The notes below the pieces were generated by a model. The model saw nothing but the letters and a program-made list of their open reading frames with translations. It searched no databases and was not told where the DNA came from. Both the position numbers and the translations under genes were made by a program. Below, one piece after another: positions 24,082 to 32,216 of a stretch of 64,000 bases of DNA. The stretch lies in the NCBI RefSeq assembly GCF_019703855.1, contig NZ_AP024086.1, forward strand, positions 3,554,501 to 3,618,500, read 5' to 3'. Each line of letters starts with the position of its first letter. The first letter of the stretch is position 1. Source of the DNA: Desulfomarina profundi. Lineage in GTDB: Bacteria; Desulfobacterota; Desulfobulbia; Desulfobulbales; Desulfocapsaceae.

Positions 24082-25251
24082 TTACTCAGGGCATACGGAC
24101 TCGGCGAATTCGAACGCACCGGAGTCACTGATCTTAACGACAACAGCACATTTTACAGGATCTCCCTGGTCATCAAACTTCATGCTGCCGGTTATACCGT
24201 CAAAAGTAGGGATGGCCGCCATGGCTTTCCGTACCGCTTTGCGATCTTTTCTCAATTTACCGGTAAGACCGCCGGTATTTTGAATAGCCTTGAGAACAAT
24301 CCTGGTTGCATCCCACGTGAGGGCAGCAACATCATCAGGCACATAACCGTATTTTTTTGTATACCGGTCAATGAATTCCTTGGTCGCCCCGGTTGCTCCT
24401 GCGGCGGCGTAATGAGTGGAAAAGTGAAGACCCTTGCAGTCATCTCCGCAGAGAGTCATGAGTTCGGAAGAACCCCAGGCATCAGAGCCCATGAACTCAC
24501 CTTTGTATCCGAGTTGATGGGCCTGCTTTACAATGAGAGCCACCTGATTATAGTTGTCAGGCAAAAAGATGAAATCAGGCTTGGCACTGATGATTTTGGT
24601 CAACTGCGCTGAAAAGTCCTGGTCCTTGGTGCCATGACTTTCAAAGGCCACGACGGAACCTTTGCCGACTTTTTTCTCAAAAACATCACGGAATATTTCA
24701 GCCAGACCTTTCGAATAGTCATTGGAAAGGTCATAAAGAACCGCTGCAGTTTTGGCATTAAAGGTTTTAACGGCAAAATTAACGGCAACAGGTCCCTGGA
24801 AAGGATCTAGGAATGCAGCCCGGAAGACCCAGGGACGATCCAGAGTGGTATCAGGATTGGTTGACCAGGGAGAAACCATTACGGTCTGATTGTCATCGGC
24901 AACCTGACCGGCTGGAACAGCCTGTTTACTGGAATTGGGTCCAATCATTGCCAGAACCTGATCCTTGTCGATAAGCTTGAGGGCTGTGGTTACCGCGGAT
25001 TCTGCCTTTGCTTCATTGTCCTCATAAATGAACTCGAGCATATACTTCTTCCCACCAACTTCCAACCCGCCGGCACCATTGATATCAGCCTTCAGCATCT
25101 CTGCAGAAAACTTGGATGATTCACCAACCTTGGGGATATCTCCAGTCAATGGAATATTGTAACCGATCTTGATCGTATCGGCAGACAGGGCCGCACCTGC
25201 AACAAGCAGGGCGGAACAGGATACAATTGCGGCAATTAACCTCTTCTTCAT
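24082..25251 (-). CDS. livK: Branched-chain amino acid periplasmic binding protein
   Basis: Type I periplasmic binding protein (389 residues) that captures branched-chain or related amino acids for LivHMGF. A signal peptide is clear: MKKR, a hydrophobic core, then ALSA before DTIKIGYNIPLTG. The family marks include GPNSSKQAVPAGQVADD, where Ser contacts the ligand, and the paired cysteines LCGDDCKGL. The gene has a purine-rich GGAGGAG before the ATG. It is the first gene of the operon. The exact substrate among Leu, Ile, Val and other amino acids cannot be told from the sequence. Confidence 0.93.
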   Translation of the reverse strand: MKKRLIAAIVSCSALLVAGAALSADTIKIGYNIPLTGDIPKVGESSKFSAEMLKADINGAGGLEVGGKKYMLEFIYEDNEAKAESAVTTALKLIDKDQVLAMIGPNSSKQAVPAGQVADDNQTVMVSPWSTNPDTTLDRPWVFRAAFLDPFQGPVAVNFAVKTFNAKTAAVLYDLSNDYSKGLAEIFRDVFEKKVGKGSVVAFESHGTKDQDFSAQLTKIISAKPDFIFLPDNYNQVALIVKQAHQLGYKGEFMGSDAWGSSELMTLCGDDCKGLHFSTHYAAAGATGATKEFIDRYTKKYGYVPDDVAALTWDATRIVLKAIQNTGGLTGKLRKDRKAVRKAMAAIPTFDGITGSMKFDDQGDPVKCAVVVKISDSGAFEFAESVCPE

Positions 25252-25587: not shown

Positions 25588-25840
25588 CATTAGCCCGCAT
25601 TTTTCATCAGTTCAGGCGGCGTCAGCTACAAAATTTTCAACAGTAAATAATAGTGGCCTATATTTACTGTTGAAATATTGCAGAAGATGGCGTCGCCTGG
25701 GCTGACCTTGGGTGAACATTGTGTCAATTTTGTTCGACTACTGATAGTAGGCTAATTATTTGTATTCTATAGCTAATCTCAAAATTGACACAATGTTCAT
25801 GAGAAATGCGGGTTAGTGTCTGTCCAGGAATGAGATTTTA
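25588..25840. repeat. Palindromic MITE-like element, copy 1 (family B), abutting a family A end
   Basis: The core is a perfect 19-base inverted repeat, GAACATTGTGTCAATTTTG at 25714-25732 and its complement at 25780-25798. Outer imperfect arms with GCCCGCATTTTTCAT (from about 25592) pair with ATGAGAAATGCGGGT near 25798. A further palindrome (TTTCAACAGTAAATA and its complement) lies at about 25637-25674. At 25814 starts a family A end (TGTCTGTCCAGGAATGAGA). The remaining bases 25252-25587 are the livK leader, with a CTCAGGTT/AACCTGAG stem near 25366-25382 and no gene. Confidence 0.65.
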
Positions 25841-25860
25841 TAAAAACATCACCTGTCTGA

Positions 25861-26139
25861 TTAAACCAGTGACCTGACGCCATCAAAAGCCTCATGTTCC
25901 GCTCCGTGTTTCTCCACCTGCAGAACATCGGGTAATTTCTGAATCTGCTTGATAACCTGGTCAAGCTTCACCTGTTCCACTACCTGCAACCACATGCGGC
26001 TTGTTTTTCCGCTTTTTTCCGGAACACAGACTATTCCTTCCAGATTGTACGCCCTGCGGGAAAAAAGACCGCAGATATGAGACATGACCCCCGGATGATT
26101 ATTCACCGTCAATTCCAATACTGTAACAGCTTTTTTCAT
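25861..26139 (-). CDS. ilvN: Acetolactate synthase small subunit
   Basis: Regulatory subunit of acetohydroxyacid synthase. The 92-residue protein is a single ACT domain (VLELTVNNHPGVMSHICGLFSRRAYNLEGI) that binds valine for feedback control in the family. It is of the short IlvN type and lacks the extra C-terminal domain of IlvH. Its ATG overlaps the ilvB stop, so the subunits are translationally coupled. Confidence 0.93.
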   Translation of the reverse strand: MKKAVTVLELTVNNHPGVMSHICGLFSRRAYNLEGIVCVPEKSGKTSRMWLQVVEQVKLDQVIKQIQKLPDVLQVEKHGAEHEAFDGVRSLV

Positions 26140-27845
26140 GATATTTCCCTCGTTTTGCGATTGACATTCTCTGCATTAAATCCACCCAGCATTTCACTGT
26201 TGGCCGCCCCCGGAGGTACCATCGGATAGACTTCCTCCTCCACGGCTACGGGCACATTTATCAGGCAGGGTCCCTTTTCATTTAATATTTTTGACAACAG
26301 ATACGGCAAATTGCAACCAGGACCGGTATGAAAGGCCTTCATGCCGAACCCTTTTGCAATGGCCGAAAAATCAACATCAATCTGAAAATCAGAGGCAAAA
26401 CAGTTCTGATTATAAAACAGATTCTGCTGTTGACGGACAAGTCCCAGCGACCTGTTGTTCATTACTATAATTTTTACATTTACCTGCTGCTCAACAGCGG
26501 TTGCCAGCTCCTGAATATTCATCTGCAGACTGCCGTCACCGGTAAAAAGAACAACCTGGCTATCGGGATTGGCCAGGGCAGCACCGATGGCTGCCGGCAG
26601 ACCAAATCCCATGGTACCGAGCCCGCCGGATGTCAGGAACTGACGCGGTCTCTGCAACGGATAAACCTGAGCGGTCCACATCTGGTGCTTTCCCACATCA
26701 GTTGCCACAAAACAGTTTTCCCCCATCAACTCGGAAATCTTCAGGATCAGGCCATACGGTTTTTCTGGAACTATGGCTTCCGGTGAAGTCATGGGATACA
26801 TCTCCTGCAGAACCTCTATCTGGTTACGCCAGATTGTTCTTTCATTTGGTTCAACCATGGGCAGAAGAGCCCGCAGGGATTCCTTGACATCTCCAACCAG
26901 TCCCACATTGGCACTCTTTAATTTTGAGACTTCACTGGGATCTATGTCCATATGAATAACATGAGCGTCAGGACAGAATTCAACAATTTTGCCGGTCGCC
27001 CGATCATCAAAACGGGCTCCGGCAGCGATGAAAAGATCACACTCCTGCAGGGCCATGTTGGTTGAACGGGCCGCATGCATCCCCAGCATTCCCAGGGAAA
27101 GGGGATGATTTTCCGGCAGACTGCCAAGACCAAGAAGGGTCATGGTGGCAGGCAGAGAGCTTTTTTCCAGAAGTGCCCGCGCTTCGCCTGCAGCCTCCCC
27201 GAGAATAACACCGCCCCCGAGACAGAGAATCGGCCGCCTGGCACGGTTGATAAGAGTAGCAGCAGCCCGAAGCTGATCATTATCAGCACTTGGATTCTCC
27301 AGCCTGCGTCCGGGTTCCGGCCAGGAAGAAAAACTTATTGTCGCTGTCTGTACATCTTTAGGAACATCGATCAATACAGGTCCCGGACGTCCCGAGAGGG
27401 CAAGCTCAAAAGCCTTCGGTATGATCTCCAGAAGTTCCCCGACTTCCCTTACCAGGTAGTTGTGCTTGGTAATTGGAATGCTCATACCATAAGTATCAAC
27501 CTCCTGGAAAGCATCCGTACCGATAAGTGATGCCGGAACCTGACCGGTTATACAGATTACCGGAATCGAGTCAAGATATGCATCAGCAATGGCCGTCAGG
27601 ATATTGGTGGCACCAGGCCCGGAAGTAGCAAAACAGACCCCGGCCTTTCCGGTGGAACGGGCTATTCCCTGTGCCAGAAAGCCGGCACCCTGTTCATGCC
27701 GGCAGAGAATATGCCGGATGCTCCGGCTTTTCTGCAACGCATCATAAAGGGGAAGGTTGGCCCCACCGGGTATTCCGGCAATGATGTCTATGCCCTGACG
27801 CTCCAGCATCCTGATTATCAGTTGAGCTCCATTCATAGTTTCCAT
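26136..27845 (-). CDS. ilvB: Acetolactate synthase large subunit
   Basis: Catalytic subunit of acetohydroxyacid synthase, the first common step of valine, leucine and isoleucine synthesis. Thiamine diphosphate, FAD and magnesium are its cofactors. The activating glutamate lies in CRHEQGAGFLAQGIARSTGK. The thiamine-diphosphate motif is present as GDGSLQMNIQEL followed by NNRSLG, and the FAD region is central. The protein has about 569 residues. The chosen ATG has AGGAGGAG 6 bases upstream; in-frame codons further upstream lie inside the attenuator. ilvN follows directly. A leader peptide and terminator upstream indicate attenuation. Confidence 0.95.
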   Translation of the reverse strand: METMNGAQLIIRMLERQGIDIIAGIPGGANLPLYDALQKSRSIRHILCRHEQGAGFLAQGIARSTGKAGVCFATSGPGATNILTAIADAYLDSIPVICITGQVPASLIGTDAFQEVDTYGMSIPITKHNYLVREVGELLEIIPKAFELALSGRPGPVLIDVPKDVQTATISFSSWPEPGRRLENPSADNDQLRAAATLINRARRPILCLGGGVILGEAAGEARALLEKSSLPATMTLLGLGSLPENHPLSLGMLGMHAARSTNMALQECDLFIAAGARFDDRATGKIVEFCPDAHVIHMDIDPSEVSKLKSANVGLVGDVKESLRALLPMVEPNERTIWRNQIEVLQEMYPMTSPEAIVPEKPYGLILKISELMGENCFVATDVGKHQMWTAQVYPLQRPRQFLTSGGLGTMGFGLPAAIGAALANPDSQVVLFTGDGSLQMNIQELATAVEQQVNVKIIVMNNRSLGLVRQQQNLFYNQNCFASDFQIDVDFSAIAKGFGMKAFHTGPGCNLPYLLSKILNEKGPCLINVPVAVEEEVYPMVPPGAANSEMLGGFNAENVNRKTREIS

Positions 27846-27896
27846 GTTTTTCTCCTCCTGTTGTTCATCCCGTCGACTTTCAGGCGGAGGAAAAAA

Positions 27897-27937
27897 CAAA
27901 AAACCCCCGCCGGCGAAGCGCCGACGGGGGTTTTAAT
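27897..27937 (-). terminator. Attenuator hairpin of ilvBN
   Basis: On the minus strand the stem ACCCCCGTCGGCG / CGCCGGCGGGGGT with loop CTT is followed by TTTTTTGTTTTTT. It lies about 27 bases after the stop of the valine-rich leader peptide and about 50 bases before the ilvB ATG. That is the layout of a translation-controlled transcription attenuator. Confidence 0.88.
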
Positions 27938-27963
27938 TATTTAATTTTACTGGACTTACCCCC

Positions 27964-28062
27964 TCATGGCACTCCGCCTTCAACCGTTCGGACCACGACC
28001 ACCACACTGAGAACCAGCACTGCAGAATAAAAGACGCTGATGGTGGAAAGAAGTGAGTTCAT
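27964..28062 (-). CDS. ilvL: ilvB leader peptide (attenuation)
   Basis: A 32-codon reading frame that encodes MNSLLSTISVFYSA, then VLVLSVVVVVRTV, then EGGVP and a stop. Of its 32 residues nine are valine, four are leucine and one is isoleucine, with five valine codons in a row. It ends just ahead of an intrinsic terminator and starts about 48 bases after a sigma-70-like promoter. Ribosome stalling at the valine and leucine codons when charged tRNA is scarce would free the ilvBN genes, as in the enterobacterial ilvB leader. The ribosome site before the ATG is weak (GGTTTAA). The gene symbol is by analogy. Confidence 0.85.
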   Translation of the reverse strand: MNSLLSTISVFYSAVLVLSVVVVVRTVEGGVP

Positions 28063-28109
28063 TTAAACCATGAGTAAGGTAATTATAAAAAAATACTGCC
28101 TGTAATTTT

Positions 28110-28138
28110 TTGATAGCAGAATCAGCCCTGCCAGTCAA
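28110..28138 (-). promoter_or_regulatory. Sigma-70-type promoter of the ilv leader and ilvBN
   Basis: On the minus strand TTGACT and TATCAA are separated by 17 bases. The site lies about 48 bases before the leader peptide ATG. Confidence 0.65.
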
Positions 28139-28377: not shown

Positions 28378-29568
28378 ATGGTTTCTTCCTTTCAATGTCT
28401 CCCTGTACCTCAGATAGATTTCGGCCCTGGAAAACTGTCTGACCTGCCTGAGTTCTATAAATCTTACGGTAAAAGACCTGCTCTTGTCCTTGGCAGAGCC
28501 TCTCTTTCGAGACAACACACCTGGCAGAAGATCAAGGCAGAAATTACTGATATTTTCGGGCCCGACAAGCCTCCAGTCATACAGGTTTCCTCCGAACCGA
28601 CCCCTACTCTCATTGACGAAGCCGTATCCCGATTACTTCAGAACCATGTGGATATGGTCATTGCAATCGGCGGTGGCAGTGTGCTGGATGCCGGCAAGGC
28701 TATCTCTGCCATGCTTGTTGAACAGGCACCGGTCATGGACTTTCTTGAAGGAGTCGGTAAAAAAAAACCGAAAGGCCGTAAACTGCCGTTTATTGCGGTC
28801 CCGACTACTGCCGGAACAGGCAGTGAAACAACAAACAATGCAGTAATCAAATCTGCGGAAAAAGGTTTTAAAAAATCTTTGCGCCACAAAAATTATTACC
28901 CGAACCTGGCTCTCGTGGATCCGGAAATGACCCTCTCCTGTCCCCCCTCTCTTACTGCGACCTGCGGTATGGACTGTTTTACCCAACTGACGGAAGCGTA
29001 TCTTTCCACCCGTGCTTCTGCCCTGACCGACAGTCTTTCGCTTGACGGTATCCGCTCCATAGCCAGGTCCCTTGAGACTGTGTTTCAAGATGGTTCAAAC
29101 CTTGAGGCCAGATCGGACATGGCTTATGCCACCCTGCTTTCCGGAATCGCTCTGAGTAATGCGGGACTGGGAACCGTTCATGGACTGGCCGGTACCCTGG
29201 GAGGTTTTCTTGATATTCCCCACGGAACAGCCTGCGGCACCCTCATGGCCATAACCAACAGAACAACCCTTGACATACTGAGGAAATCTACAGCAAAAAC
29301 GGATACGGAAACGACAGCCCTGCGAAAATTCTCCAACCTTGGCAGGATTTTCAGTAAAGAATCGACAAAAACCGACAACTGGTACCAGGATTTTTTCATA
29401 AACGAACTGATTCGACTGACCGATCTGTTTGAACTGCCGACATTTGATAGATTCGGCATGAATTCCACTGACCTGGAAAAAATTACTTTCGCCTCAACCA
29501 ACAAGTTTAATCCCGTGCAGCTGTCCCGTGAAGATCTCATGCACATTCTCTCAGCCAGACTACGATGA
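28378..29568 (+). CDS. Iron-containing alcohol dehydrogenase family protein
   Basis: NAD(P)-dependent group III alcohol dehydrogenase of 396 residues. The nucleotide-binding loop is AIGGGSVLDAGKAIS near 97, followed by PTTAGTGSETT near 140. Metal ligands in this family are Asp, His, His, His. The Asp is in GMDCFTQ, where the usual second-ligand His is Gln, and the later two are in VHGLAG and PHGTACG. The Gln change may alter metal or substrate choice. The alcohol or aldehyde substrate cannot be told. It overlaps the next gene by four bases, so it may be co-transcribed with the O-antigen ligase gene. Confidence 0.85.
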   Translation: MVSSFQCLPVPQIDFGPGKLSDLPEFYKSYGKRPALVLGRASLSRQHTWQKIKAEITDIFGPDKPPVIQVSSEPTPTLIDEAVSRLLQNHVDMVIAIGGGSVLDAGKAISAMLVEQAPVMDFLEGVGKKKPKGRKLPFIAVPTTAGTGSETTNNAVIKSAEKGFKKSLRHKNYYPNLALVDPEMTLSCPPSLTATCGMDCFTQLTEAYLSTRASALTDSLSLDGIRSIARSLETVFQDGSNLEARSDMAYATLLSGIALSNAGLGTVHGLAGTLGGFLDIPHGTACGTLMAITNRTTLDILRKSTAKTDTETTALRKFSNLGRIFSKESTKTDNWYQDFFINELIRLTDLFELPTFDRFGMNSTDLEKITFASTNKFNPVQLSREDLMHILSARLR

Positions 29569-32049: not shown

Positions 32050-32216
32050 CCGCAAGAACTGACTTTTGATGAATATTGTGTAAATTTTTCTCAATCACTG
32101 ATAGTTGGTGTCTGTCCAGAAATGAGATTTTATGTTCGAGTTCAAGGAGCATAGAAAAATAGTTTGTATTCTACAGATTTTCCCAAAATTGACACAATGT
32201 TCATGAGAAATGCGGA
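32050..32216. repeat. Family B palindrome, copy 2, interrupted by a family A segment
   Basis: The arms GAATATTGTGTAAATTTTT (32071-32089) and CAAAATTGACACAATGTTC (32184-32202) match the element at 25714-25798, as do the inner words CACTGATAGT and TTTGTATTCTA. Between those words this copy carries about 54 extra bases from 32107 that begin GTGTCTGTCCAGAAATGAGA. Those bases match the repeat at 53519. The whole gap 32011-32340 contains only these repeats. Confidence 0.65.

Follow-up and report, generated by a model that had tools for sequence, protein, structure and literature searches.

The upstream region of the acetolactate synthase genes ilvBN in Desulfomarina profundi raises the question whether a short, valine-rich reading frame and the GC-rich hairpin behind it form a regulatory switch or merely lie next to each other. 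We analyzed a stretch of 64,000 nucleotides (the window) and assign a probability of about 0.92 to the reading that its positions 28138–27897 (minus strand) are a ribosome-mediated transcription attenuator of the ivbL-ilvB type. Most likely, the leader frame and the hairpin jointly sense valine, as their E. coli counterparts do. For the coordinates of all parts see Table 1.

Table 1. Parts of the ilvBN leader locus in the window.
Feature	Position	Strand	Basis
Sigma-70-like promoter, TTGACT - 17 nt - TATCAA	28110..28138	-	read directly
-35-like element TTGACT	28138-28133	-	
-10-like element TATCAA	28115-28110	-	
Leader peptide frame, 32 codons, MNSLLSTISVFYSAVLVLSVVVVVRTVEGGVP	27964..28062 (ATG 28062, TGA 27964)	-	corresponding frames in L002-L007
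Control codons GTG GTG GTC GTG GTC (Val 20-24)	27991..28005	-	
Antiterminator 5' segment GTGCC ATGA GGGGGT, overlaps the end of the leader frame	27958..27972	-	
Segment common to terminator and antiterminator, ACCCCCGTCGGCGC	27918..27931	-	
Intrinsic terminator hairpin, 16 pairs, then T-rich tail 27899-27890	27900..27934	-	terminator scan and covariation
ilvB Shine-Dalgarno sequence AGGAGG	27854..27859	-	read directly
ilvB, acetolactate synthase large subunit, isozyme-I type (AHAS I)	26136..27845 (ATG 27845)	-	NCBIfam NF006016
ilvN, small subunit, one ACT domain, 92 aa	25861..26139	-	NCBIfam NF006036, ORF

A first-pass annotation of this DNA had described a promoter, a leader frame with five consecutive valines, a terminator and ilvB. 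All four were found at the given place, in that order and with that spacing, on the minus strand. The leader peptide contains 10 valines and 4 leucines among its 32 residues. Control by both amino acids had been suggested; valine alone is better supported, since the four leucine codons are less tightly placed. In the terminator stem, 11 of the 16 pairs are G-C. Two terminator-like sites were detected in the region (0.5 expected), the second nested inside the first. The start codon of ilvN and the stop codon of ilvB overlap in the sequence ATGA.

The promoter is absent from the list of a stricter promoter scan, because that scan accepts a -10 hexamer only if it ends in T. The word TTGAC lies 41–86 nt 5' of the leader start in eight of nine loci (the window, six relatives and the Desulfocapsa locus L034, the ninth being L083), and upstream of 29 of 77 leaders with 6.2 expected from shuffling. 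None of the Shine-Dalgarno-like words searched for precedes the leader ATG of the window; such a word is present at 29 of 84 leaders, some of whose starts may be wrongly chosen.

The leader promoter shares its intergenic region with a divergent gene for an iron-containing alcohol dehydrogenase (28378–29568, plus strand). A periplasmic binding protein (Peripla_BP_6, 24082–25251, minus strand) is encoded downstream of ilvBN; its family is associated with branched-chain specificity. The window also contains two copies (25702–25841 and 32059–32215) of an interspersed, imperfectly palindromic, MITE- or REP-like repeat of about 114 bp, one of them located between ilvN and the next gene. At least 40 copies, 85–100% identical and including the query, occur in the same genome (40 of 210 candidates scored).

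To classify the genes behind the leader we compared them with protein family models. IlvB scored 901.6 bits against NCBIfam NF006016 (cut-off 870) and IlvN 130.3 bits against NF006036 (cut-off 128), and on these scores the pair is classified as isozyme-I ilvBN, the type of E. coli AHAS I. In a large-subunit tree from a quick search, with SH-aLRT as the only support measure, the window sequence belongs to a clade of eight together with L034; this clade lies inside the isozyme-I clade, whose separation from five canonical synthases is fully supported. The same genome also carries a canonical acetolactate synthase (46–48% identical) with a small subunit of 161 residues. Upstream of this second ilvB our detector found no terminator and no valine run above 1.

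Isozyme-I type ilvB was observed in 7 of 38 genomes of the genus, family and order of the window (window included), the six relatives being 64–70% identical to it. It was found in none of six other genomes of the same genus, which are incomplete (72–88%). All seven loci have leader and terminator at the same place, and the 5' arm of the terminator contains CGGCGC or TGGCGC. The leader frame is thus conserved in six of six relatives, with 33–44 residues and at the same position before ilvB. The long valine run is not kept in all of them: its longest pure stretch is at least five in L001–L004 and three in L007, but only two in L005 and L006, where valine is mixed with leucine and isoleucine. For this reason a strict version of the detector misses L005 and L006.

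A wider sample came from a scan with the alignment of the seven proteins, which yielded at least 80 loci chosen on the protein and not on the leader. The final set of 89 loci comprises 80 among the matches listed, the seven relatives, and E. coli and Proteus as references; the loci are not independent, since many are Enterobacterales. Nearly all are isozyme I, L112 hardly so (outside the main isozyme-I clade, 46% identity). Among the matches listed, a relaxed detector found leader and terminator before 84 of the 89 ilvB genes, with a valine run of at least four in 56 of 89. At 503 other gene starts the combination occurred nine times, never with a run of four or more. The strict detector responded at 64 of the 89 loci (among the matches listed) and at none of 23 canonical ilvB paralogues, of which L020 and L021 have little upstream sequence. 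Single assignments need comment. L107 has no upstream sequence, and no leader with terminator was obtained for L082 and L106. The relaxed detector overlooked L042 and L044, although both show valine-rich frames. L098 is probably a false leader, L033 is the same contig as L006, and for L077 the detector picked the poorer ORF.

These counts bear on the simplest alternative, an ordinary terminator next to a chance frame, where the hairpin ends an upstream transcript or constantly damps ilvB and the valine run is meaningless. Terminator-like, GC-rich hairpins are indeed common, being found upstream of 80 of the 503 background gene starts. Leader and terminator with a run of at least three valines, however, occur at one of these 503 starts as opposed to 74 of the 89 loci (among the matches listed), and the pairing between the leader's end and the terminator arm shows covariation (see below). 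We regard a chance arrangement as very unlikely.

In the tree the loci carry nine phylum labels: Pseudomonadota, Thermodesulfobacteriota, Verrucomicrobiota, Spirochaetota, Bacillota, Omnitrophota, Binatota, Armatimonadota and Elusimicrobiota. The last four are represented by one metagenome bin each, so that contamination is possible. Of three Bacillota loci one (L091) has a leader, and L098 and L106 have no credible one. The earlier remark that such leaders are best known from enterobacteria was fair, but they are not confined there, as eight phylum labels stand beside that of the window.

An attenuator involves two mutually exclusive helices, and a search for the second one had been proposed by the first-pass annotation. 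This rival pairing was found. The segment GUGCC....GGGGGU (27972–27958) pairs with ACCCCC...GGCGC (27931–27918) in the 5' arm of the terminator, and compensating changes occur in relatives. In the window this duplex has an energy of -24.0 kcal/mol compared with a mean of -15.1 kcal/mol for dinucleotide shuffles (z = -2.97), and one of 200 shuffles was equally good. Over 84 loci, a set that includes the duplicate pair L006/L033 and L077 with another ORF picked, z is below 0 in 83 (mean -2.07). The sole exception is L098, which we judge to be a false leader.

We modeled the effect of a ribosome by truncating the nascent RNA at the terminator loop and folding it with an assumed ribosome footprint of 30 nt masked. 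For the window, 11 antiterminator pairs formed with the ribosome at the valine run, none with the ribosome at the stop codon, and 13 without a ribosome. E. coli ivbL (L031) gave nine, none and ten pairs, respectively. The numbers for the stalled ribosome and the ribosome at the stop codon were 12 and 0 in L002, 14 and 0 in L003, 14 and 3 in L004, and 15 and 0 in L080; L104 from Spirochaetia was weak (4 and 0). The contrast follows from the positions within the frame: valine codons 20–24 comprise nt 58–72, the antiterminator segment nt 91–105 and the stop codon nt 97–99, so that a ribosome stalled at valine frees the segment and one at the stop codon covers it.

Full-length folding with a stalled ribosome yielded the terminator in the window and in the other five non-enterobacterial loci tested. 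In E. coli, by contrast, the antiterminator was kept and one terminator pair remained. The difference is explained by the higher stability of the terminator in the window (-30.1 versus -20.1 kcal/mol in E. coli). As the full-length fold of the window is the terminator in both ribosome states, even the stalled one, its switch would have to be kinetic, and likewise that of the other five loci. Furthermore, since the antiterminator also forms without a ribosome, an untranslated leader alone would not terminate unless another fold intervenes. In full-length folding the 5' end of the leader pairs with the leader's own end, a candidate protector hairpin that would make termination the default of an untranslated leader; the nascent ribosome-free fold keeps the antiterminator.

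Based on these folds we propose the following mechanism, in which translation of the leader, termination and the nature of the signal are what we infer. Transcription would start 5' of the leader frame. A shortage of charged tRNA-Val would make the ribosome stall in the valine run at codons 20–24. Its footprint would then end before nt 91 of the frame and leave GUGCC....GGGGGU free to pair with the 5' arm of the terminator, so that RNA polymerase could read into ilvBN. If valine is plentiful, the ribosome would reach the stop codon and cover the antiterminator segment. In that case the 16-pair terminator would form and transcription would end near 27897.

Both helices are conserved by compensating changes. 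In 53 chosen regions, 92.3% of the cells of the terminator helix and 85.5% of those of the antiterminator helix are paired, with double changes in seven of ten and six of nine pairs, respectively. For this set we removed 24 loci by hand, near-copies for the most part, with L052 and L081 among the others, and then seven of the remaining 60 (L039, L070 and L079 as near-copies; L063, L077, L085 and L112 as odd). Because such a choice could favor the result, the counts were repeated on 82 regions (77 distinct), i.e. all 84 detected ones except L033 and L098 and with a better ORF for L077. The counts hold: 89.7% of the cells are paired in the terminator (double changes in seven of ten pairs) and 86.7% in the antiterminator (seven of nine). 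The covariation score was reached by none of 500 shuffles for either helix and either set, a control that ignores the relatedness of the sequences; on some other measures one or two of 500 shuffles reached the antiterminator. When the antiterminator partner was slid along the sequence, at most 49.1% of the cells were paired and the covariation score was at most 0.089, compared with 86.7% and 0.156 for the actual partner. In this comparison there was no excess in pairs or cells changed on both sides. Thus the anatomy of the element, its two rival helices and their conservation are established by computation.

The conserved part of the element also bears on the possibility that the RNA senses a ligand directly, for instance as a T-box or a ppGpp riboswitch, with the frame being incidental. 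A ppGpp riboswitch controls some ilvB genes elsewhere, according to PMC10272879. At the gathering score no Rfam family matched the window, and none of Rfam 15 matched the leaders of 20 related loci. What is conserved is a valine-coding run together with the rival helices, and no further conserved core is visible in the alignments. In the last 13 codons of 21 Enterobacterales leaders, 0, 1 and 7 columns are variable at codon positions 1, 2 and 3; judged from this alignment, the third bases are free and the pattern is that of a translated frame. Direct sensing is therefore extremely unlikely. Matches to known Rfam leaders on the minus strand of the region were rejected as they stayed far below the cut-offs (e.g. 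His_leader with 26.1 of 49 bits). The 20 leaders without a match include the annotated E. coli ivbL (L031, 961–1059), so routine RNA annotation misses this element.

A third alternative assigns the function to the peptide, as a small hydrophobic protein with attenuation as a second role. The leader peptide is hydrophobic, and for Sinorhizobium a trpL leader peptide with activity in trans is reported (PMC7298713). The sequences, however, differ widely between groups outside the valine run. The dipeptide -AP near the C-terminus recurs in 55 of 84 leaders, but it is read from the GCGCC segment needed by the antiterminator and would thus reflect RNA pairing and not a function of the peptide. A peptide with a role of its own is in our judgment highly improbable.

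Sequestration of the ilvB Shine-Dalgarno sequence was considered as a conserved second layer and rejected. In the window (27900–27846, minus strand) the T-rich tail with CCTCC can pair with it. Over 52 loci, however, the mean pairing was 0.53 compared with 0.49 for shuffles, and 28 of the 52 exceeded their own shuffle mean (ranks: window 12/100, L007 1/100, L004 7/100). Words complementary to the Shine-Dalgarno sequence are somewhat frequent after the terminator (15 of 83, 6.5 expected).

Both NF006016 and R1, a covariance model of the element built from the 53 chosen regions, were run on 247 genomes of the phylum. NF006016 matched at 1e-200 or better in 14 genomes, eleven with at least 753 bits and three with 667–669 bits, the latter taken as canonical on score (the canonical enzyme of genome G113 has 610.7 bits). 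In 11 of 11 isozyme-I genes an R1 match ends directly upstream of ilvB; nine of these loci are outside the model, and G000 and G235 (the locus of L078) are inside. No R1 match adjoins ilvB in the three lower-scoring genomes, searched to E 1. Some of the survey leaders have short valine runs (VVV in G112, G145 and G225; interrupted in G054 and G063). By itself R1 is not specific. It matched at E ≤ 0.01 in 110 of the 247 genomes, with positions assigned to a minority, among the matches listed, and ilvB leaders score down to 35.2 bits, within the range of matches without ilvB. Of 20 fetched R1 loci, L117–L122 and L132 look like chance matches. Strict filters in turn lose matches: G191 had none at first and later one of 33.3 bits, away from its ilvB.

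Four loci of the survey deviate from the usual arrangement. In G167 two valine-rich leaders, each with its own terminator, precede one isozyme-I ilvB (reverse complement of L114, 703–976; G167:C36:33225–33498, minus strand), a predicted double attenuator; tandem attenuators are reported for Salmonella mgtCBR (PMC3641672). In G113 a similar leader with terminator (L134, 3967–4082; G113:C182; R1 75.3 bits) is located not before an isozyme-I ilvB but before a cluster of ilvD, canonical ilvB, ilvH and ilvC. In G181 a frame with VVVVVV near its end and a terminator precede an acyl-CoA synthetase gene (L116, 563–732; G181:C20), whose best NCBIfam match is MbcS with 451.5 bits, short of the cut-off of 850. 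The arrangement may reflect control of branched-chain acyl activation by valine, or may be fortuitous. Finally, at the contig start of G088 (L115/L136; G088:C15) a valine-rich leader ending in -GAP and a hairpin lie about 210 bases from the contig end and face it. As the adjoining 3 kb contain no ilvB, the gene under control probably lies beyond the contig end.

The distribution raises the question of common origin. AHAS I has been described as confined to gammaproteobacteria except for Desulfovibrio and one firmicute (PMC5727371), and the word 'leader' does not occur in the main text of that paper. Leader-peptide attenuators have been suggested, in one view, to arise repeatedly (PMC2965389). 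Over 49 loci the distance between attenuator cores tracks the distance between the IlvB proteins (rho = 0.51, 0 of 500 permutations); for distant pairs the relation is weak (rho = 0.18, 20 of 500; rho = 0.16, 39 of 500). On these sequence comparisons, deep common descent of all attenuators is likely rather than established. We tentatively suggest, at slightly less than even odds, that one old valine-leader module accompanied isozyme-I ilvB across nine or more phyla, was kept almost everywhere the gene goes, and can be doubled (G167) or taken over by another ilv operon (G113). If true, this would contradict the published view of isozyme I as essentially gammaproteobacterial. Since a single attenuator can be traced together with the gene behind it across several phyla, and a paralogue lacking the element serves as control, the age and the mobility of the switch become testable.

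The ivbL-ilvB attenuator of Enterobacterales, E. coli among them, is the closest known system. Leader-peptide attenuation of E. coli ilvB is classical, reportedly going back to Hauser and Hatfield in 1984. Both systems have an isozyme-I ilvBN gene pair, a leader of 32 residues with a valine run, and the same contrast between the stalled ribosome and the ribosome at the stop codon in the nascent folds. The antiterminator words are also alike (GCGCCG...GGG with CCC...CGGCGC in ivbL, GTGCC in the window), and CGGCGC is the terminator core in both. The leader ends in -GNAP in ivbL and in -GGVP in the window. The window differs from E. coli in its taxon, in having one valine run instead of two, and in lacking a Shine-Dalgarno-like word before the leader.

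The ilvB of Corynebacterium is of a type different from the isozyme-I gene of the window. Attenuation of ilvBNC is reported for C. glutamicum (PMC11857589). PMC10272879 proposes that uORF attenuation is common for ilvB and reports motifs in Corynebacterium, in Leptospira and in 'various bacterial phyla' (ilvB-OMG). The Corynebacterium ilvB-II motif resembles the window in its branched-chain-rich uORF and terminator before ilvB, but this uORF, described for Corynebacterium, usually has 15–17 residues as opposed to 32 (PMC10272879). The ilvB-OMG and Leptospira ilvB motifs likewise have predicted uORFs with branched-chain codons, with at least three consecutive valine codons in those of Leptospira (PMC10272879). 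Leaders of the window type appear to differ from these two, as no Rfam family matched the window or the 20 leaders compared at the gathering score. Two comparative-genomics studies cited in PMC10272879, Vitreschak 2004 and Lopatovskaya 2010, predict attenuators in proteobacteria and beyond and concern, by title, the same class of mechanism. Among the titles and abstract openings listed, there was no description of a valine leader of ilvB outside enterobacteria.

For a lineage resembling sulfate reducers, the analysis provides a well-supported annotation of valine attenuation of ilvBN; its covariance model locates the element beside isozyme-I ilvB. The kind of attenuator is known, namely the ivbL type. 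New are the taxon, the breadth of its occurrence, the tandem copy and the copy before another ilv operon, and its distribution is wider than described in the literature passages compared.
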